Assembly (NCBI GenBank): GCA_902780305.1
Contig: CACZFB010000005.1
Coordinates: forward strand, 1 to 64,000
Reading direction: 5' to 3'
Length of the DNA stretch: 64,000 nt
Source of the DNA: an uncultured Coriobacteriaceae bacterium
GTDB taxonomy: Bacteria; Actinomycetota; Coriobacteriia; Coriobacteriales; Atopobiaceae
In this document: in pieces, positions 8,826-45,328 of the stretch
Layout of the letters: every line of letters begins with the position of its first letter
How positions within the stretch are numbered: position 1 is the first letter of the stretch
Position numbers and translations under genes: made by a program
The notes under the pieces: model-generated
Database searches by the model: none
The model's input: the letters and a program-made list of their open reading frames with translations, nothing else
What the model was told of the DNA's origin: nothing

Positions 8826-10166
8826 ATGCGCTCAGGCGATGCCTACAACACGCACTTCTCAAAGGAGGGCCTCGAGGAGATATATGCCCGCGACGTCGCG
8901 GGCCGCACGGCTGTCGGCAAGGATCGCGTGACGCCACAGCGCCTCGGTGATGAGCTGGATGGTGCGATAGAGACCATCCTACGGAAGGCTGACGGCGGGA
9001 GCTATCGGTTCACCAACTATCGCCAGCTGCTCGTTTCAAAGGGGCTGGGAAAAAACCCGAGAGAAATCTGCATCCCCTCAGCGCGCGACATGCTCGTCTT
9101 GGCGGGCCTCAAGGCCGTACTCGCCGATGTCCTCGGTCAGACGTGCCAGACGCCAAGGCCCCAACCAGTAATCGCGCGACTGCAACAGGAGATGGAATCG
9201 GGGCGCTTTGACCACTTCATGAAAATCGACGTGGAGGAGTTCTACCACTCAATAGATCACCAAACGCTCATGCATATACTGCGGTATCGGTTGCGCATTC
9301 GCAAGCCAGAGGTGCTCAAGCTGATACGCGCCGCCATCTCAACGCCGAGCTCACCCATGGATGCACCGAGCTGCCCGCCTCGGAAGGCGGGGCTTCCCGA
9401 GGGCCTGCCGATCTCGAACATACTCGCCAACGCATACATGTCAGGTCTGGACAAAGACTGCGCGAGCAATTCCCGCATTTGTTACTTCCGCTATGTCGAC
9501 GACATCGTCATTCTGTGCGACTCGGCATATGCGAGCACGGCGAAGAGGTTCGTGCGCTCCCGTCTGGACAGACTCGGACTAAACACGAATCCGAACAAGC
9601 GGTCAAAGGGAACCTTAAGGTTGGATCGGCTTGAGTACCTTGGCTATGTGTTCGACGGGGCGGGGGTGGGCATTAGGAGGTCGTCCGTGCTTCGCCTAGA
9701 GCAGCGGATAGAGTCCCTCGTCAAGCAGTGCGCGCGCGGCCAACAGGCCAACCGCGAGCGGGCGCTGCTGGAGCTGAGTCTCGTTATCACAGGCTGCATT
9801 TGGCAGAGGGATGGCCACGACGAGCAGAGGTATGGCTGGGCCATGTACTACGCGCAGACAACCGACTACGCCTGCTTCGTGAAGCTCGACAGGACACTCA
9901 AAAAGATGGACGCCCGCTACAAGGCGGGCGTCGCAGGCGAGCTGCCAAGGTTCCGCCGCGTATACTTTGAGGTGAAGTACCGGTTGAGGCAAACGACGTA
10001 CATCCCCCGCTATGGCCATGAGATGCCGACTGAGGAGAAGCGGCGCATTTTGGCCAAGCTAGGCGTTCCCATTGACGGTCGTGACGAGTCGTGGATCGAC
10101 CGAGTATTCACTCGGCGGCTGCTGAGGCTGTGCCGGAAGCTGGACCGCGATGTCGGTGCGTACTGA
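8826..10166 (+). CDS. Reverse transcriptase of the defence (UG/DRT-like) type
   Basis: RNA-dependent DNA polymerase of about 446 residues. It shows the N-terminal KDRVTPQRLGDEL and KNPREICIPSARDMLVL motifs, a catalytic Asp in FMKIDVEEFYHSI, the GLPEGLPISNILANAYM block and the polymerase core FRYVDDIVIL with YVDD at residues 223-226. The last 180 residues or so are helical and basic. There is no group II intron maturase X or HNH domain and no intron RNA-like flank, which argues against an intron RT. Start ATG 8826 follows GGGCGAGG. The stop overlaps the next gene, a SLATT-like membrane effector. This arrangement fits the antiviral RT families; the exact subtype cannot be fixed by eye. Confidence 0.85.
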   Translation: MRSGDAYNTHFSKEGLEEIYARDVAGRTAVGKDRVTPQRLGDELDGAIETILRKADGGSYRFTNYRQLLVSKGLGKNPREICIPSARDMLVLAGLKAVLADVLGQTCQTPRPQPVIARLQQEMESGRFDHFMKIDVEEFYHSIDHQTLMHILRYRLRIRKPEVLKLIRAAISTPSSPMDAPSCPPRKAGLPEGLPISNILANAYMSGLDKDCASNSRICYFRYVDDIVILCDSAYASTAKRFVRSRLDRLGLNTNPNKRSKGTLRLDRLEYLGYVFDGAGVGIRRSSVLRLEQRIESLVKQCARGQQANRERALLELSLVITGCIWQRDGHDEQRYGWAMYYAQTTDYACFVKLDRTLKKMDARYKAGVAGELPRFRRVYFEVKYRLRQTTYIPRYGHEMPTEEKRRILAKLGVPIDGRDESWIDRVFTRRLLRLCRKLDRDVGAY

Positions 10167-10836
10167 ACTCATGCAAACATGCGCTCGAAGAATGGAGCAC
10201 TTGCCGATGGACGACAAGGGACAGATGATGCCAATAGGCTGGAAGCTTAGCGAGACGATTCGAGGGACGCGAGGGTGCCACATTGAGGCGGAGCGGCGCC
10301 TGCTTGCCCGTTCTGCACAAACGAGCCATGCGAACCTGTACTATGGCTGTTGGTCAGCGGTGCTAACCCTCCTGACGCTCGACCAGAGGTTCGCGGGCCT
10401 GGGCCTGCCCGCAGCGTGCTTCGCGACTACAGTTGCGCTTTGGGCCGCGTACGCCTCCGCAGAGAAATACGAGCTCCGCGCCCGGGACTTCTATTGCAGC
10501 TACCTGCAGCTCCAAGACTTGTGGAAGGAAGCCGAATGTGCCGAGGCGCTGCCGTCGGACAACCCCGTTCGTACAAGGGTCCTCGATGACGTTTGGGGAA
10601 GGTACTGCCAGGTGCTGGCATCGACGGAAAATCACACCGAGGAGGACTACATCAACTTTCTCGTCGCCGAATATGAAAAGAAGACCAGTGGGGATGCGAC
10701 CGCCCAGATGACCGAAAGGCAGAGGCGGAAGAGGCTGTGGTTCGGAACGGTCCGCCTCCTGCGCTGGGCTGCGATATACCTCTTGGCTCCAGCCATATTG
10801 CTCTTCGCGTCGTCGATTGCGGCGGTCTTCGTATAG
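10150..10836 (+). CDS. SLATT-like 2TM effector partnered with the RT
   Basis: About 228 residues, starting inside the RT gene (17-bp overlap; in-frame ATG 10171 is an alternative). The N-terminal helix carries ETIRGTRGCHIEAERRL. Two close membrane segments follow (around 60-95), then RDFYCSYLQLQDL and the motif LASTENHTEEDYINF, and a further hydrophobic C-terminal segment (around 205-228). The R-x-F-x-x-Y and seNHs-x-x-D pattern is that of the SLATT family 5 (SMODS and SLOG-associating 2TM effector), which Burroughs, Aravind and co-workers linked to RTs. The proposed role is membrane damage and cell death on activation. The product of RT action is the likely trigger (inference). Confidence 0.75.
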   Translation: MSVRTELMQTCARRMEHLPMDDKGQMMPIGWKLSETIRGTRGCHIEAERRLLARSAQTSHANLYYGCWSAVLTLLTLDQRFAGLGLPAACFATTVALWAAYASAEKYELRARDFYCSYLQLQDLWKEAECAEALPSDNPVRTRVLDDVWGRYCQVLASTENHTEEDYINFLVAEYEKKTSGDATAQMTERQRRKRLWFGTVRLLRWAAIYLLAPAILLFASSIAAVFV

Positions 10837-15404: not shown

Positions 15405-15599
15405 GATACGCCCTCGATTGAGGTGATGGGCTCCTGCTTGCACCATTGCAAACAGTTGGCATGTAAGGCAAATCTGCGATGCGCGCGCTCTTCCTGCCGG
15501 GTCTGGCGAAAGCAGATCGTTCCTGTTGCCGCCCCTCTCGGCCTGTGCTAAACTCGCAATACACAAATCATACACAATTACCTACACAAGGGAGCGCAC

Positions 15600-16223
15600 A
15601 TGGCGAAGGAGCGACTCGATCTCATGGTCGACGGCAAGGTGAAGAGGATGCTTCGGGACGTGGCTGCCTCCGAGGGGATCTCCATGTCCCAGCTCGTGGA
15701 GGTGATGCTCACCGAGCACCTCTCTGCCGACGGGGAGCCCGCGGGACCGGCGCACGCCGTGGGCGACCTTCTCTGGATTCAGAAGCTCCAGGGGGAGTTC
15801 GAGCGGGCGATGGAGCTGGGAAGGATTCACTCGTTCCGCAGTTGGGCCGGGTCCACTGGTCACGTGCGTCCGTCCGAGGGTGACGGACCAGTCGTGCTCT
15901 TCGTCGGCAAGAGCGAGGACGGCTACCGTGAGGGAGACGTGGTGGTCGACTGGTATGCAGACGGAGCAGACGTCGGAATCCTCTCGACCTACGACTGCGT
16001 GCTCAAGACCGTCTGCGTTCGCTTGGAATGGACGGACGGCGAGGACGGGTCGTTCATCCCGTACGGCCTCCTCGTCTGGCCAAAGGAGGGGGGTGGCAGG
16101 ATTCAGGACCCGCTCTTCGAGTGGAAGTGTCCGACGAGATGGCGGGCCAAGGCGCCTCTCGATGTTGCCATAGGACGCCAGGGAGAAGCAGACACAGCTC
16201 TGGCCAGCGGGCGAGAAAGCTGA
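15600..16223 (+). CDS. RHH-like small protein preceding the helicase fusion
   Basis: About 207 residues; start ATG 15600 with AAGGGAG upstream. The first 45 residues (ERLDLMVDGKVKRMLRDVAA then SEGISMSQLVEVMLTEHL) fit a ribbon-helix-helix or CopG-like fold: one strand and two helices. The rest is mixed alpha/beta with FVGKSEDGYREGDVVVDWYA and no known family. It ends 10 bp before the nuclease-helicase gene and surely shares its transcript. It may be a repressor of the operon or a DNA-binding partner of the helicase. Confidence 0.65.
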   Translation: MAKERLDLMVDGKVKRMLRDVAASEGISMSQLVEVMLTEHLSADGEPAGPAHAVGDLLWIQKLQGEFERAMELGRIHSFRSWAGSTGHVRPSEGDGPVVLFVGKSEDGYREGDVVVDWYADGADVGILSTYDCVLKTVCVRLEWTDGEDGSFIPYGLLVWPKEGGGRIQDPLFEWKCPTRWRAKAPLDVAIGRQGEADTALASGRES

Positions 16224-16233
16224 GGCGTCTGGC

Positions 16234-19200
16234 ATGATCACCATAGCGAGGGGCCCGCACGGCGAGAGGGTCCACGTTGACGACACGGAAAGCCGTTGCG
16301 ACTACACTTGCCCCGTTTGTGGCACTTTGCTCGTTCCTCACAAGGGCGATGTGCGTCGTCATCACTTCAAGCACAAGGGCGACCACGCCTGCGTTGACTC
16401 GTGGGGTGGAACGTACTGCGACTCCGAGTGGCATCACGCCTGGCAGGAGCGATTCCCGCTCGACAACCGCGAGGTTACGCTTGCGCTCGGCTCGGTTCGG
16501 CACAGGGCGGACGTGATCGTAGGGCAGACGGTCGTCGAGTTCCAGCACAGCAGACTCGCGAAGGAGCGCTACGACGACCGCAACGCGTTCTATGGCGACC
16601 TGGGCTACAAGGTTGCGTGGCTCTTTGATCTGCGGTCTGCCTTCGAGGACGGCAGCATCGTGCTGAGGCCTGATTCCCAGGTCGACTCCCGCGGGTTGCA
16701 AACGGCGTTCCAGTGGGACAACCCAAGGGAGGCGTTTCGCGCTTATGACCCTTCCGACGGAAGCGTGGACCTCTACTTCCAGCTTGAGGACGACGTAGAT
16801 GACAGGCCGTGTATTGTACGCGTCGTCAGGACGACGAAGGGTGGGTTCGAGGAGTTCGAGACGTTGCCGTGGCTTACTGCCGAGGAGTTCCTTGCACTGA
16901 CGGGTGAGCGCGAAGGGGAGTTCCCTCCGCCCGACTGCTCTCCGCTGGAACCTCGCGAGGACTACCTCCGCTTCAAAGAGCGATTTGACGTCTGTCTGGA
17001 CGCCCAGCAGGAGCGTGCTGCACAGTCCGTGGACGGCGCGACACTTCTGCTCGCCGTGCCCGGCTCCGGAAAGACCACGACCATGGTGGCTCGTCTGGGA
17101 TACCTGACCTTGGAGCGCGGGATCGATCCCCGGTCTATCGTTGCGGTGACGTATGGCAAGGATGCGACGGAGGAGATGCGCCGGCGGTTCGTGCGGCAGT
17201 TCGGAAACCAAGAGATCGCGAACGCCATCACCTTCTGCACAATCAACGCGCTTTGTAGGGGCATCTATCACGAATGGTGCGACAGGAAACCGGGTCGTCG
17301 GTCCAAGAGGAAGCTCATTGAGGAGGGAGCTGCTAAGCGGCTGCTCAGGGACATCTACGGGAAGCTCAAGAATGGATTCGTCTCCGAGGACGAGCTCATA
17401 GACCTGTCGACGAGGATCTGCTGGGTGAAGAACAACATGCTCGAGCCTAGCGAGCACCCCTGGCTGGACGAGGACATCCCTCACTTCATCGAGATGTACG
17501 AGCGGTACTGCGACCGCCTCAAGAATGATGGGATGATGGACTTCGACGACCAGATGCGCTTCGCCAAGTATGTGCTCGAGCAAGACCAGGAGCTGCTGGA
17601 GAGGTGCCGGCAGCGATACCGCTACTGGTGTGTGGACGAGGCGCAGGACACGTCGCGCATCCAGCACCACGTCATCCGCATGCTCGCCGGTCCCGGTGGG
17701 TCAGGCAACGTGTTCATGGTGGGCGACGAGGACCAGAGCATCTACGGCTACAGGGGTGCGTTCCCGGAGGCGCTTCTGAGCTTTACAGTCGACTACCCGA
17801 ACGCACGCGTCCTGAAGATGGAGACCAACTACCGCTCTGGCGAGGAGATCGTGTCCGCGGCCAATAAGTTCGTCAGCCACTGCAAGGGGCGCATCGACAA
17901 GCGCATGGTGTCGGCCCGCGGTACCGTGTCGTCTGTCCAGATCGAGGAAGTCGGAGACCGCATCGATCAGTTCAACGCTGTCCTCAGGCTAATTCTCGAG
18001 CACCAGGGCGCCGGGGGCGGCAAGCTTGCGGTGCTGTACCGCAACAACGCCACGGCCGTTCCGCTCGCAGACATCCTCATCCGGGAGGGTGTCGCCTTCA
18101 CGATGGGCGGCAAGGTCAATACGTTGCTCACATCGCCGACGGTGATGGACGTGAAGGCCTTCATGCGACTTGCGATGGACCCTGGTGACGAGAAGGCGTT
18201 CATGCGGGTTTACATGAAGGGCGGGGATGGGCCCGTTGCCAAAAGGGACGCGGAATGGGCGTGCAAGAACGCGAGGAGGAATCAGGCAAGCATCCTCGAC
18301 GCGTTCGTCGACCAGATGTCCAGCTATCGCAAGGGATGGCAGGTCAGGAAGGATTTGCCGAAGGCGATGAGGCTGTCCTCACTCGTACGAGGTATAGCAG
18401 ATTTACCTCCGCTTGCCGCCATCGAGCTGCTGCTCTCGGGCGGATATGGCGACTGGCTCGATTCCAAGGGCAAGAGCGCCCATAACGTCGAGCTCCTGAA
18501 GCCCATCGCGGTCCGCGAGACGACGCTGGCGTCCTTCCTGCACCGCCTCGACTTCCTGGGAGGTGAGCATGGCAAGACATGGCCCGACCACCGCGTGTCG
18601 GATGCCGTGACGCTGGCGACCACACACGCATGCAAGGGGCGCGAGTTCGATACGGTCGTCGTTATTGATGCCATTGATGGCGTGTTCCCCTCGGAGCGGG
18701 CTGACCCGCTGGACTACGGGAAGGACAGGGCGAGGGACTGGCAGGAGGAGCGCAGGCTCTTTTACGTTGCGATGACCCGTGCGAAGGATGAGCTAATCCT
18801 GTTGCGTCCCGCCGACGAGGACACGCCCTTCGTGGACGAGGTCGTGTCCCGCCCGGCAGTGCAAGTGACGTCGGCGTATGCGGGCCTTGGCTCGCAGATG
18901 ACCGTGATAGGCGAGTCAATTGACGATGGGCCGCACGGTGTCGGCGGGCGCGTTCTCCCCGTGCGTCCTAACCTTGGGGTTTCGGTCCCCAAGCCGAAAC
19001 CCGTGCGTCAAGTGTCGCGTTACGACGTGGATACATGGCAGATTGTCGAGCGTAGGGGCGAGGCGTATTGCCGGGCCGAGAACGAGGGAATGAAAGCGGA
19101 GATAACGCGCGGGCCTGCGGGAAAGACGGTGGACCTGCACGTGCCCTGGACCCGTGACGCAATCATGGATGTCGCCGAGCACGTTGAGGGGCTTGCGCAG

Positions 19201-19485
19201 GGCTGCTCAGAGTTCGTGGCACACGTCGACGTCACGGGAGCACAGCTGGGCGGGAGCGTGCGATACGATGCAACGGAGGGCGATGCAGTCAGATTCGTAT
19301 TCGAGGATGGGCAGCCCGCAGAGGCCCTGTCCAGGCTTGTCCAGTCGCTTGAGTCCCTGGCCGGGATGGGGACGCTCGTCGTGTTGGGATGCAAGCCGCC
19401 GGACGGCGCCCGTGGCGAGAGGCTGGTGCGGGAGGTCGATGGGCATCTGAGAACGATTTTGGTCAGCGCCGAGATCTATGAGTGA
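16234..19485 (+). CDS. CoiA-like nuclease fused to UvrD/Rep-type helicase
   Basis: One chain of 1083 residues. The N-terminus (about 20-160) looks like the competence protein CoiA family: a zinc-type knuckle CDYTCPVCG…HHFKHKG and a nuclease core RADVIVGQTVVEFQHSRLAK (PD-(D/E)XK style, Asp then Glu-Phe-Gln). From about 260 it is a superfamily 1A helicase: AVPGSGKTTT (Walker A, near 274), VDEAQDTS (near 467), GDEDQSIYGYRGA, ETNYRSG, and FYVAMTRAKDELILL near 845. The C-terminal 150 residues are unassigned. SF1A helicases unwind DNA 3' to 5'. With a nuclease in front, it could process phage or foreign DNA. I know of no named system with this order. The upstream RHH-like gene completes a two-gene unit. 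Confidence 0.85.
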   Translation: MITIARGPHGERVHVDDTESRCDYTCPVCGTLLVPHKGDVRRHHFKHKGDHACVDSWGGTYCDSEWHHAWQERFPLDNREVTLALGSVRHRADVIVGQTVVEFQHSRLAKERYDDRNAFYGDLGYKVAWLFDLRSAFEDGSIVLRPDSQVDSRGLQTAFQWDNPREAFRAYDPSDGSVDLYFQLEDDVDDRPCIVRVVRTTKGGFEEFETLPWLTAEEFLALTGEREGEFPPPDCSPLEPREDYLRFKERFDVCLDAQQERAAQSVDGATLLLAVPGSGKTTTMVARLGYLTLERGIDPRSIVAVTYGKDATEEMRRRFVRQFGNQEIANAITFCTINALCRGIYHEWCDRKPGRRSKRKLIEEGAAKRLLRDIYGKLKNGFVSEDELIDLSTRICWVKNNMLEPSEHPWLDEDIPHFIEMYERYCDRLKNDGMMDFDDQMRFAKYVLEQDQELLERCRQRYRYWCVDEAQDTSRIQHHVIRMLAGPGGSGNVFMVGDEDQSIYGYRGAFPEALLSFTVDYPNARVLKMETNYRSGEEIVSAANKFVSHCKGRIDKRMVSARGTVSSVQIEEVGDRIDQFNAVLRLILEHQGAGGGKLAVLYRNNATAVPLADILIREGVAFTMGGKVNTLLTSPTVMDVKAFMRLAMDPGDEKAFMRVYMKGGDGPVAKRDAEWACKNARRNQASILDAFVDQMSSYRKGWQVRKDLPKAMRLSSLVRGIADLPPLAAIELLLSGGYGDWLDSKGKSAHNVELLKPIAVRETTLASFLHRLDFLGGEHGKTWPDHRVSDAVTLATTHACKGREFDTVVVIDAIDGVFPSERADPLDYGKDRARDWQEERRLFYVAMTRAKDELILLRPADEDTPFVDEVVSRPAVQVTSAYAGLGSQMTVIGESIDDGPHGVGGRVLPVRPNLGVSVPKPKPVRQVSRYDVDTWQIVERRGEAYCRAENEGMKAEITRGPAGKTVDLHVPWTRDAIMDVAEHVEGLAQGCSEFVAHVDVTGAQLGGSVRYDATEGDAVRFVFEDGQPAEALSRLVQSLESLAGMGTLVVLGCKPPDGARGERLVREVDGHLRTILVSAEIYE

Positions 19486-19731: not shown

Positions 19732-19943
19732 CCAAAAAGTGTATGCTCGGAGGCTGTTTCATTCGCCAAAACGGGGTTTGTGTACGGAATAAAGGGCTCC
19801 GAAATTACGGGGGTTGTAAAACGGTACCACCTACCTGCGGCTTTGCGGGGCTTCTTGCGGCCCATACGGCGATTCGAGCCTCCAAAACCGTACACAAACC
19901 CCAAAACGGCGAATGAAACGACGTTCGAGCATACACTTTTTGG
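19732..19943. repeat. 210-bp palindromic repeat, copy A
   Basis: The ends are inverted copies: CCAAAAAGTGTATGCTCGGA near 19732 and CGAGCATACACTTTTTGG ending at 19943. Inside lie inverted GTTTCATTCGCCAAAACGGG and GGGGTTTGTGTACG blocks and a conserved non-palindromic centre CTACCTGCGGCTTTGCGGGG…ATACGGCGATTCGAGCC. Flanking bases (CGCGTCTTCC left, CTGGC right) are also shared with copies B and C. Confidence 0.9.
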
Positions 19944-20434
19944 CTGGCGCGGCCTTGAGCTGGAGGTTTCGAAGTAGCATCGCCGACCAAAGAGACGGAG
20001 TTGCCCGCGCATGTCGATCTGACTGGCGTGGCGGGGCTGGCTGTTCGTGGGGTTAGGCTAAGGGAAGCTTCATGTGCTGCGACTCAATGCGTCGTGGCTG
20101 TCGGTGGCCGTGGTCCGTATTGTTGGGCAATAGTTAAGCACTATGGCTGATCAGAGCCATCTCCTAAGATTGGAAAGACGCTCTTGTCATGCAGTGGACT
20201 GTCCCAAACTCAATCGGCTACCTTTTTTATCTTATGCTTTATGCTTGTACGACCCTATCGATGGGTTGGTTGTTTGGGTGCGAGAAACGCATATCGCCAA
20301 GATTTCGAGCGACCTCAAGAAGGCGTATGCGAAGCGTGTCAGAGGGTGTCCTCGTTTGGTGGCTTATTTGCCGTTGTGGCTGGATTTATGTATAGTGTGA
20401 GCAACATAGCGTGACGCTAAGTCTTGGAGCCTAT

Positions 20435-20797
20435 ATGGGTACACGGAGGGAACGACGAAGAGCACCCACTTATTCGCTTGAGAGTGTGAAGAGACTCGTT
20501 GAAGAGGGGAAGGTACGCATTGGTTCTAGGCCAAGAGTTTTTATCCGCAATCGGGTGGGCCGGTTTGATACAAAGGCCTTTATGCAAGAACTATTCGAGG
20601 CACTAGATCCGGACGACTTTTACAAGACAGAAGAGCTCAACGTATTGCCGGGGACGTGGGCCGATGTGTATAAGTCGATTCCATTCACTGACGCTGAGTC
20701 CGGGGAGACGAGCGATTGGTACCTTAAGTTCTACGTTGAAGGCGACTATCTTCGTGTCCATGTGCTGAGTGCGAACTATGACGGGTACATCCACTAG
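20435..20797 (+). CDS. mqsR: MqsR-family mRNA interferase toxin
   Basis: About 120 residues. Start ATG 20435 has TTGGAG upstream; a frame from 20411 is longer but lacks a site. RRAPTYSLESVKRLVEEGKV at the N-terminus, then DPDDFYKTEEL, TWADVYKSIPF and DWYLKFYVEGDYLRVHVLSA match MqsR, a RelE-fold RNase that cuts mRNA at GCU. It is followed 19 bp later by an MqsA-type antitoxin, the normal mqsRA order. A promoter-like TTGCCG/TATAGT pair lies around 20370-20398. It has about 20 more residues than E. coli MqsR. Confidence 0.85.
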   Translation: MGTRRERRRAPTYSLESVKRLVEEGKVRIGSRPRVFIRNRVGRFDTKAFMQELFEALDPDDFYKTEELNVLPGTWADVYKSIPFTDAESGETSDWYLKFYVEGDYLRVHVLSANYDGYIH

Positions 20798-20816
20798 TTT
20801 TTGAAGGGGTTTTGCT

Positions 20817-21674
20817 ATGCGGTGCTCCGTGTGTGGCTCTTCCATGAGTGAGATAACTGGAGCGATAACAGAGACGGTTAGAGGCGTTCCTACTACAGTA
20901 GATGGCATTCACCATTTCGTTTGCGATGCCTGTGGGGAAATCGAGATGGATTTGGACAATGCCGACAGGCTGTCTAGAGAGCAGATGAGGCAAGTGGCAA
21001 AAGCGAAGGGAATTCTTTCGCCTGATGAGATTCGGGGAATAAGGAAGGGCCTAGGCTTAACGCAGGAGGAATTCCAGCGCCTGCTCGGAGTGTCGAGTCC
21101 CGCCGTCTCTCGATGGGAAACGGGTGCCATGCTCCCATCGAAGACTACTGACAATCTGATGCGGGTTATTGCGGAGGTGCCCGAGGCGGTGGCGTTTCTT
21201 ATGGACAGGGAGCCTGACATAGAGTTTAAGGTGAAGATTGCCTTGGATGACCCTGCACCCACAGTGCGGTACGTGAGAGAAGTTACGAATGGCCACGTAT
21301 TTGACATGAAGTTCATTGACCCTATCTTTCCCGAGGACCAGACTATCACTCGTGAGTTCTACATCGTGGGCATCAGGCATCATGCCGGTTGCTGCGGATC
21401 GGACTGCAATCGTCTTCCACGGGTCAAAGAGGGGGACGAGGTAACGCTGCGGCCAGAGCCTGACAACGCGTTCGACGAGTTTGCTCTTACGGTCCACACG
21501 CAGGAAGGGGAGATGCTTGGGTATATCCCGAGGTATTACAGCGAGGGCATCTCGGCCAGGCTTGCCGTAGGGATGACGTATGAGTGCGAGGTAATCGAGA
21601 TTGACCATGAGCATAACTGCGAGGTCTGTCTAAAGGTGCGGCTTTCGATTCCGAGGGAAGAGCCGGCATCTTGA
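20817..21674 (+). CDS. mqsA: MqsA antitoxin fused to a HIRAN domain
   Basis: About 285 residues; start ATG 20817 behind AAGGGG. The N-terminus has two CxxC pairs (Cys3/Cys6, Cys36/Cys39) as in MqsA, which bind zinc and grip the toxin. Residues about 62-120 form a helix-turn-helix (IRGIRKGLGLTQEEFQRLL, SSPAVSRWETGAMLPS) for operator binding. Ordinary MqsA ends there at roughly 131 residues. Here a further 160 residues carry EFYIVGIRHHAG, GDEVTLRPEPDNAFDEFALT and MLGYIPRYYSEGISARL, the pattern of a HIRAN domain. HIRAN domains bind 3' DNA ends or stalled forks in HLTF-type proteins. A fusion like this could tie toxin release to DNA damage or phage replication (inference). Confidence 0.85.
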   Translation: MRCSVCGSSMSEITGAITETVRGVPTTVDGIHHFVCDACGEIEMDLDNADRLSREQMRQVAKAKGILSPDEIRGIRKGLGLTQEEFQRLLGVSSPAVSRWETGAMLPSKTTDNLMRVIAEVPEAVAFLMDREPDIEFKVKIALDDPAPTVRYVREVTNGHVFDMKFIDPIFPEDQTITREFYIVGIRHHAGCCGSDCNRLPRVKEGDEVTLRPEPDNAFDEFALTVHTQEGEMLGYIPRYYSEGISARLAVGMTYECEVIEIDHEHNCEVCLKVRLSIPREEPAS

Positions 21675-22399: not shown

Positions 22400-22610
22400 C
22401 CAAAAAGTGTATGCTCGGAGGCCGTTTCATTTGCCAAAACGGGGTTTGTGTACGAAATATCGGGCTCCGAAATTACGGGGTCGTAAAACCGCGCCCCCTA
22501 CCTGCGGCTTTGCGGGGTGTCTTGCGGCCTATACGGCGATTTGAGCCTCCAAAACCGTACACAAACCCCAAAACGGCAAATGAAACGGCCTTCGAGCATA
22601 CACTTTTTGG
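22400..22610. repeat. 210-bp palindromic repeat, copy B
   Basis: Full copy. Its right flank (22611-22690) is nearly identical to the right flank of copy C (27382-27461), so these two copies share about 80 bp beyond the palindrome. That flank lies at the 3' end of the hipA C-terminal remnant. Confidence 0.9.
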
Positions 22611-27171: not shown

Positions 27172-27381
27172 GAAAAAGTGTATGCCCGAAGGCCGTTTCA
27201 TTTGCCAAAACGGGGTTTGTGTACGAAATATCGGGCTCCGAAATCACGGGGTCGTAAAACCGCGCCATCTACCTGCGGCTTTGCGGGGTGTCTTGCGGCC
27301 CATACGGCGATTCGAGCCTCCAAAACCGTACACAAACCCCAAAACGGCGAATGAAACAGCCCCTGAGCATACACTTTTTGG
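27172..27381. repeat. 210-bp palindromic repeat, copy C
   Basis: Full copy with left end CGAAAAAGTGTATGCCCGAA and right end GAGCATACACTTTTTGG. The left flank (27068-27110) shares CAATCGTCGTT and GCCAGCCAGGC with the flank of copy A; the right flank is shared with copy B. Confidence 0.9.
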
Positions 27382-43830: not shown

Positions 43831-44040
43831 CCAAAAAGTGTATGCTCGAAGGCCGTTTCATTCGCCAAAACGGGGTTTGTGTACGAAATATCGGGCTCTG
43901 AAATCACGGGGTCACAAAACCGCGCCCCCTACCTGCGGCTTTGCGGGGCGTCTTGCGGCCCATACGGCGATTCGAGCCTCAAAAACCGTACACAAACCCC
44001 AAAACGGCAAATGAAACGGCCTTCGAGCATACACTTTTTT
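43831..44040. repeat. 210-bp palindromic repeat, copy E
   Basis: Full copy with arms CCAAAAAGTGTATGCTCGAA and TTCGAGCATACACTTTTTT. The left flank AGCGGCTCCTCG is shared with copy F. It sits between the SDR gene and the next gene on the same strand, so it is probably transcribed. Confidence 0.9.
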
Positions 44041-45119: not shown

Positions 45120-45328
45120 CCAAAAAGTGTAAGCTCGAAGGCCGTTTCATTCGCCAAAACGGGGTTTGTGTACGAAATATCGGGCTCCGAAATCACGGGG
45201 TCGCAAAACCGCGCCCACTACCTGCGGCTTTGCGGGGCGTCTTGCGGCCCATACGGCGATTCGAGCCTCAAAAACCGTACACAAACCCCAAAACGGCAAA
45301 TGAAACGGCCTCCGAGCATACACTTTTC
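45120..45328. repeat. 210-bp palindromic repeat, copy F
   Basis: Full copy, nearly identical to E, with the same AGCGGCTCCTCG left flank. The pair E/F encloses only the gene at 44105-45091, like ends of a small mobile unit. Confidence 0.9.

Follow-up and report, generated by a model that had tools for sequence, protein, structure and literature searches.

A CoiA-type nuclease and a UvrD/PcrA-type helicase are joined in a single protein encoded in the window, the 64,000-nucleotide stretch of contig CACZFB010000005.1 from an uncultured Coriobacteriaceae bacterium that was analyzed here. This fusion is a real, selected, and rare architecture of the nuclease-helicase defence kind and brings no new principle. 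With a probability of roughly 0.6, it is a single-protein effector that destroys phage or plasmid DNA, with the small ribbon-helix-helix (RHH)-like protein encoded upstream as its autorepressor. The coordinates of the two open reading frames in a preliminary description of this DNA, and the 10-bp gap between them, were verified. The features are as follows.

15560..15589, + strand: candidate RHH operator, read from the sequence; three direct TACACAA repeats with 11–12-bp spacing, the last of which stops 10 bp short of the start codon of the RHH gene
15600..16223, + strand: RHH-like protein, 207 aa; putative N-terminal CopG/RelB-type ribbon-helix-helix (approximately residues 1–42), followed by a conserved C-terminal domain of no known family
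16234..19485, + strand: CoiA-nuclease/UvrD-helicase fusion protein, 1083 aa (ORF call, profile matches)
16279..16392, + strand: CoiA_N zinc knuckle, residues 16–53 (C26, C29, H43/H44, H47, C53; profile, alignment)
16426..16632, + strand: CoiA PD-ExQ nuclease core, residues 65–133 (D93, E102, Q104; profile, alignment)
16996..18807, + strand: SF1A UvrD/PcrA-type helicase, residues 255–858, with all motifs (profiles, motif reading)
18844..19485, + strand: C-terminal extension, residues 871–1083, without a family match; found in the genus copies and absent in Treponema

Domain Architecture of the Fusion Protein

The N-terminal part of the fusion was compared with the Pfam profiles of the CoiA family. 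CoiA_N (PF25164) matches residues 16–53 with an E-value of 1.5e-5 and 24.8 bits, slightly below the cut-off of 26.3, and CoiA_nuc (PF06054) matches residues 86–133 with an E-value of 1.1e-4 and 22.8 bits, above the cut-off of 20.3. E-values as low as 1.6e-11 for CoiA_N and 8e-9 for CoiA_nuc, both above cut-off, are obtained with the homologues, and both profiles exceed the Pfam cut-offs in the fusions at L011, L024, and L064. The nuclease half is therefore no chance match, and the nuclease-like N-terminus that had been proposed is borne out at the profile level. Residues C29, H43, H44, H47, C53, D93, E102, and Q104 are invariant in all nine of the aligned CoiA-type N-termini, two of which come from stand-alone proteins. 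D93, E102, and Q104 correspond to the PD-ExQ active-site variant proposed for CoiA (PMC1189080).

The AlphaFold model of the N-terminus is poor (mean pLDDT of 56). At this low confidence a helix appears at residues 65–73, strands at 81–104, a helix at 110–122, and a strand at 126–132, an order that fits a PD-(D/E)XK core. Fold searches with the low-confidence models of the N-terminus and of the RHH-like protein returned no significant match. The PDB profile matches of the N-terminus were set aside as chance.

The N and C parts of UvrD span residues 256–858 with Pfam E-values of 1.6e-53 and 2.8e-32, respectively. The SF1A motifs appear in order in the translation as AVPGSGKTT (274–282), VDEAQDT (467–473), and VGDEDQSIYGYRGA (496–509), together with NYRSGEE (532–538), TTHACKGREFD, and QEERRLFYVAMTRA. 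The zinc knuckle, PD-(D/E)XK core, and complete SF1A helicase of the preliminary description are thus found in one chain. The PcrA equivalog model gives 283.7 bits against a cut-off of 911.2, and the protein does not qualify as a housekeeping PcrA/UvrD/Rep. A second UvrD-type helicase is encoded in the same genome on C21 (31% identity over 406 residues). In the helicase tree, read without row L079 (wrong frame), the fusions group with an unfused gut helicase (L059); the branching is not resolved, and one origin for the fusion is therefore not proven.

Distribution and Selection

Intact fusions are present in 4 of the 16 genomes of the genus, namely that of the window, G184 (L011), G1060 (L021), and G1058 (L064), and the last three are 44–46% identical to the window copy. 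The named genomes are RUG assemblies of uncultured Coriobacteriaceae, which we take from the prefix to be of rumen origin. The fusion of Treponema saccharophilum (L024) has 844 aa and 36% identity and is without the C-terminal extension. The nuclease and helicase motifs are conserved across two phyla, and the occurrence of intact fusions in other genomes of the genus and in T. saccharophilum indicates that the fusion is no accident. Broken copies are found at L012/L013 and L022.

When 84,980 species were scanned with a seed pattern, which gives a lower bound, T. saccharophilum alone was added. Samples of the order (299 genomes), the phylum (396), and the Treponema phylum (393) contained no additional fusion. 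The fusion is rare, with no further intact copy in the approximately 1,000 genomes that these three partly overlapping samples comprise together.

The L011 and L021 loci have in common a 4505-bp block of 98.7% identity. Its start is 65 bp upstream of the RHH gene, and it stops 0.6 kb past the fusion. Outside this block, the two loci align over just 55 bp. Between them the fusion gene has 12.5 synonymous changes in 726 sites and 15.5 others in 2451, for a pN/pS of 0.37, which argues that the product is being kept by purifying selection.

When the nuclease-helicase junction was searched in plasmids and phages using tblastn, the matches were confined to the helicase part, and the fused form appears in no phage or plasmid record. 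In viral contigs, two matches were confined to the zinc knuckle of a CoiA-like protein that has no helicase; two further viral-contig scans gave no match. Separate CoiA and UvrD genes lie ≤6 kb apart in three of the nine annotated plasmid CoiA loci examined. On the Nocardioides plasmid pNOCA01 (L084, 3086–6546), genes for an AAA ATPase, a UvrD helicase, and CoiA form an adjacent trio, a Gabija-like locus with CoiA.

Genomic Setting

A worn defence island occupies the first 30 kb of the window. Its genes include a KAP ATPase matching PDC-S49, AbiH, an AriA/PD-T4-4-like AAA ATPase, a UG17 reverse transcriptase with SLATT, a PDC-S06 remnant, MqsR with MqsA-HIRAN, AlbA, a TOTE primase fragment, Fic, and a HipA fragment. 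The fusion gene had been described as undecayed among decayed neighbours, in agreement with the pN/pS between L011 and L021 and with neighbouring ORFs that match only parts of their families (a C-terminal piece of PDC-S06, a piece of TOTE primase, and an N-terminal piece of HipA). The UG17-type reverse transcriptase and SLATT_5 genes are located at 8826–10836, in a known DRT-type arrangement. At 20411–21674, the gene after that for an MqsR-like toxin encodes an MqsA antitoxin with a fused HIRAN domain, a fusion that looks unusual for MqsA.

The fusion at L011 is accompanied by ABC-3C, BrxA, GajA, and a HEPN protein, and the one at L064 by an AbiL-like ATPase. The tested ORFs beside the genus copies included no integrase, relaxase, or phage structural gene. 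The Treponema fusion is located in a stretch bounded by transhydrogenase-like and ABC-transporter genes, apparently housekeeping genes, with no visible defence island. The island location that had been suggested thus holds for the genus copies, in which no housekeeping synteny is seen, and is not visible for the Treponema copy. A PBECR4-domain gene (L024, 7445–7885) is located directly upstream of the T. saccharophilum fusion.

The RHH-like Protein and Its Candidate Operator

The RHH-like protein of the window is 47% identical to the L011 homologue and 35–36% identical to those at L018 and L071. It matches the RelB_DinJ model (TIGR02384) weakly, with an E-value of 0.012. Sub-threshold matches of the family are mostly to RHH families and include FitA-RHH, RelB, DUF6290, and RHH_5; CopG and the antitoxin Rv0298 are among the top five PDB matches of the family profile (E-values of 0.3–0.7). 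The AlphaFold model is poor (57), with two helices at residues 12–24 and 29–42. The small RHH-like partner of the preliminary description is present as a gene, and its N-terminal domain is tentatively assigned to the RHH fold from matches that are faint but consistent.

The family has five members among 397 genomes of the order. Three of these (window, L011, and L021, the last two nearly identical) precede a fusion, and the gene heads two of the four fusion lineages. It was not found at the fusion loci L064 and L024 and is present without a fusion at L018 and L071; searches around the broken copies L012/L022 and in plasmids gave no match. The constant pairing that had been named as a check is accordingly not supported, and the pairing is frequent only.

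At L018 (5453–9818), the RHH gene adjoins a gene for a PLD nuclease-SF2 helicase-DUF3427 enzyme. Models of type IV restriction match this enzyme, and the locus also has a type I system. At L071 (1795–4575), the RHH gene adjoins a gene for a PDC-S41 protein, which combines a nuclease-like N-terminus with a Schlafen-group-3 helicase. In both cases the neighbour and the RHH gene are convergent. Each of the five RHH genes thus has a nuclease-helicase gene next to its 3' end; these genes fall into three unrelated kinds, with CoiA-UvrD in three cases. It is quite unlikely, in our estimate, that the family serves nuclease-helicase defence proteins as a portable control or sensing module, which might tie their activity to phage attack beyond plain autorepression.

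The sequence TACACA occurs three to four times in the 100 bp upstream of each of the five RHH genes, mostly at a spacing of 11–12 bp. These 16 copies compare with approximately 0.15 expected from the density in the same loci. The motif was selected from the window, and L011/L021, L018, and L071 therefore serve as the test loci; all of them keep the arrays despite much divergent upstream DNA. By analogy with known RHH operators, a spacing of approximately one helical turn would suit adjacent RHH dimers. With the arrays as the firmest evidence, autoregulation of the operon by the RHH protein through this candidate operator is very probable. At L064 (2990–3010), a TACACA/TACACG pair 11 bp apart lies approximately 330 bp upstream of the RHH-less fusion, possibly an operator relic after loss of the RHH gene or a product of chance.

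Comparison with Known Systems

No named system with the CoiA-UvrD architecture was found in Pfam, PADLOC, NCBIfam, or the literature searched, as had been anticipated, and CoiA and UvrD are not mentioned together in that literature, which covers few subscription journals. Several phage defences, including Nhi, Hna, Gabija, and Hachiman, likewise combine the work of a nuclease and a helicase. Nhi, which has been described as nicking and unwinding DNA (PMC12904381), also combines nuclease and helicase in one protein. The fusion differs in its CoiA-type PD-ExQ nuclease, zinc knuckle, and PcrA-like motor, and in the RHH gene ahead of it in some lineages; Nhi is not among the best 25 of the 54 PADLOC matches that the full protein gives. 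With its N-terminal part as the query, the one PADLOC match is DruB1, and it is weak. Hna, too, joins a PD-(D/E)XK nuclease and a helicase in one effector, but in Hna an SF2 helicase comes first and the nuclease is C-terminal (PMC13381803), whereas the fusion has an N-terminal nuclease and an SF1A motor and so does not share the Hna layout. The fusion is best read as working like Nhi or Hna while being neither.

Gabija also employs a UvrD-like helicase with a nuclease, and GajB models match the helicase part of the fusion (2e-67). The PcrA model nevertheless scores higher than the best GajB model (283.7 and 226.1 bits, respectively), and the nuclease is a CoiA PD-ExQ domain in the same chain, whereas GajA is an OLD-TOPRIM protein. 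No GajA/TOPRIM ATPase was found beside the window fusion among the tested neighbours, and the locus is not a Gabija system. In AddA and RecB, a UvrD-type motor is joined to a PD-(D/E)XK nuclease that is C-terminal, whereas that of the fusion is N-terminal and of the CoiA type; the matches to the AddA and RecB models are limited to the helicase part and score far under cut-off. The CoiA family (PF25164, PF06054) has the same zinc knuckle and PD-ExQ core, to which the fusion adds a complete helicase and the C-terminal extension, with no sign of a link to competence.

Proposed Function and Alternatives

In the proposed mechanism, the UvrD motor would probably load on single-stranded or flap-containing DNA, such as the replication and recombination intermediates of phages or plasmids, and would travel 3'→5' while the N-terminal PD-ExQ nuclease, aided by the zinc knuckle, cuts the strand encountered. 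RHH dimers would bind the TACACA repeats before the operon and repress transcription, so that little of a dangerous nuclease is made until the repression ends. A defence role is suggested by the intact conserved motifs, the defence-gene neighbours of the genus copies, the patchy occurrence, and the purifying selection. It is also suggested by the proximity of CoiA and UvrD genes on plasmids, the TACACA arrays, and the presence of a CoiA-domain protein in a validated E. coli anti-phage system (PMC9519451). Since CoiA itself has its known role in competence, a CoiA domain is by itself no proof of defence. Island membership is guilt by association and, like the Treponema copy outside a visible island and the poor AlphaFold models, is counted against this role.

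A toxin-antitoxin-like pair, in which the fusion is a self-harming nuclease that the RHH protein neutralises by direct binding while repressing the operon, would account for the RHH gene coming first with a 10-bp gap, for the resemblance to the RelB, FitA, and Rv0298 antitoxins, and for a repeat array like those before autoregulated antitoxin operons. It is considered unlikely, since the two genes are not a conserved pair: the fusion occurs without the RHH gene at L064 and L024, and the RHH gene without the fusion at L018 and L071. The findings agree better with a fusion effector that an RHH autorepressor often governs than with a paired system.

The related unfused helicase at L059 is located on a gut phage-like contig, and the operon is common as a block to genomes with different flanks, as might be expected if the fusion were a repair or replication helicase that aids the replication or recombination of a mobile element instead of defending the host. 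The tested ORFs beside the genus copies and the phage and plasmid records, in which neither element genes nor the fused form were found, respectively, make this improbable. A competence or recombination factor that processes incoming DNA, like CoiA in streptococci, would be consistent with the CoiA ancestry, with the fusion being the sole CoiA of its genome (a fact equally compatible with the alternative), and with the ComEC-family gene in that genome. This role is very unlikely for a gene that is absent from 12 of the 16 genus genomes, located among defence genes, and repeatedly broken, unlike a core competence gene.

As a defence effector, the fusion would add a single-protein nuclease-motor assembled from unusual parts to the DNA-targeting defences. 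To our knowledge, the nuclease activity of CoiA has hitherto been a prediction, and the fusion would place CoiA in one chain with its motor, a setting where the nuclease can be tested. With the repeat array, control of the system can be tested in a simple binding assay.

Other TACACAA Copies in the Window

The remaining TACACAA copies in the window, except one, are part of dispersed repeats of approximately 120 bp with inverted TTGTGTA/TACACAA ends (AACGGGGTTTGTGTACG...CCGTACACAAACCCC). These are located at 19770–19905, 22438–22572, 27209–27343, 43869–44003, and 45158–45292. They yield many spurious ORFs and resemble a palindromic mobile or REP-like element.
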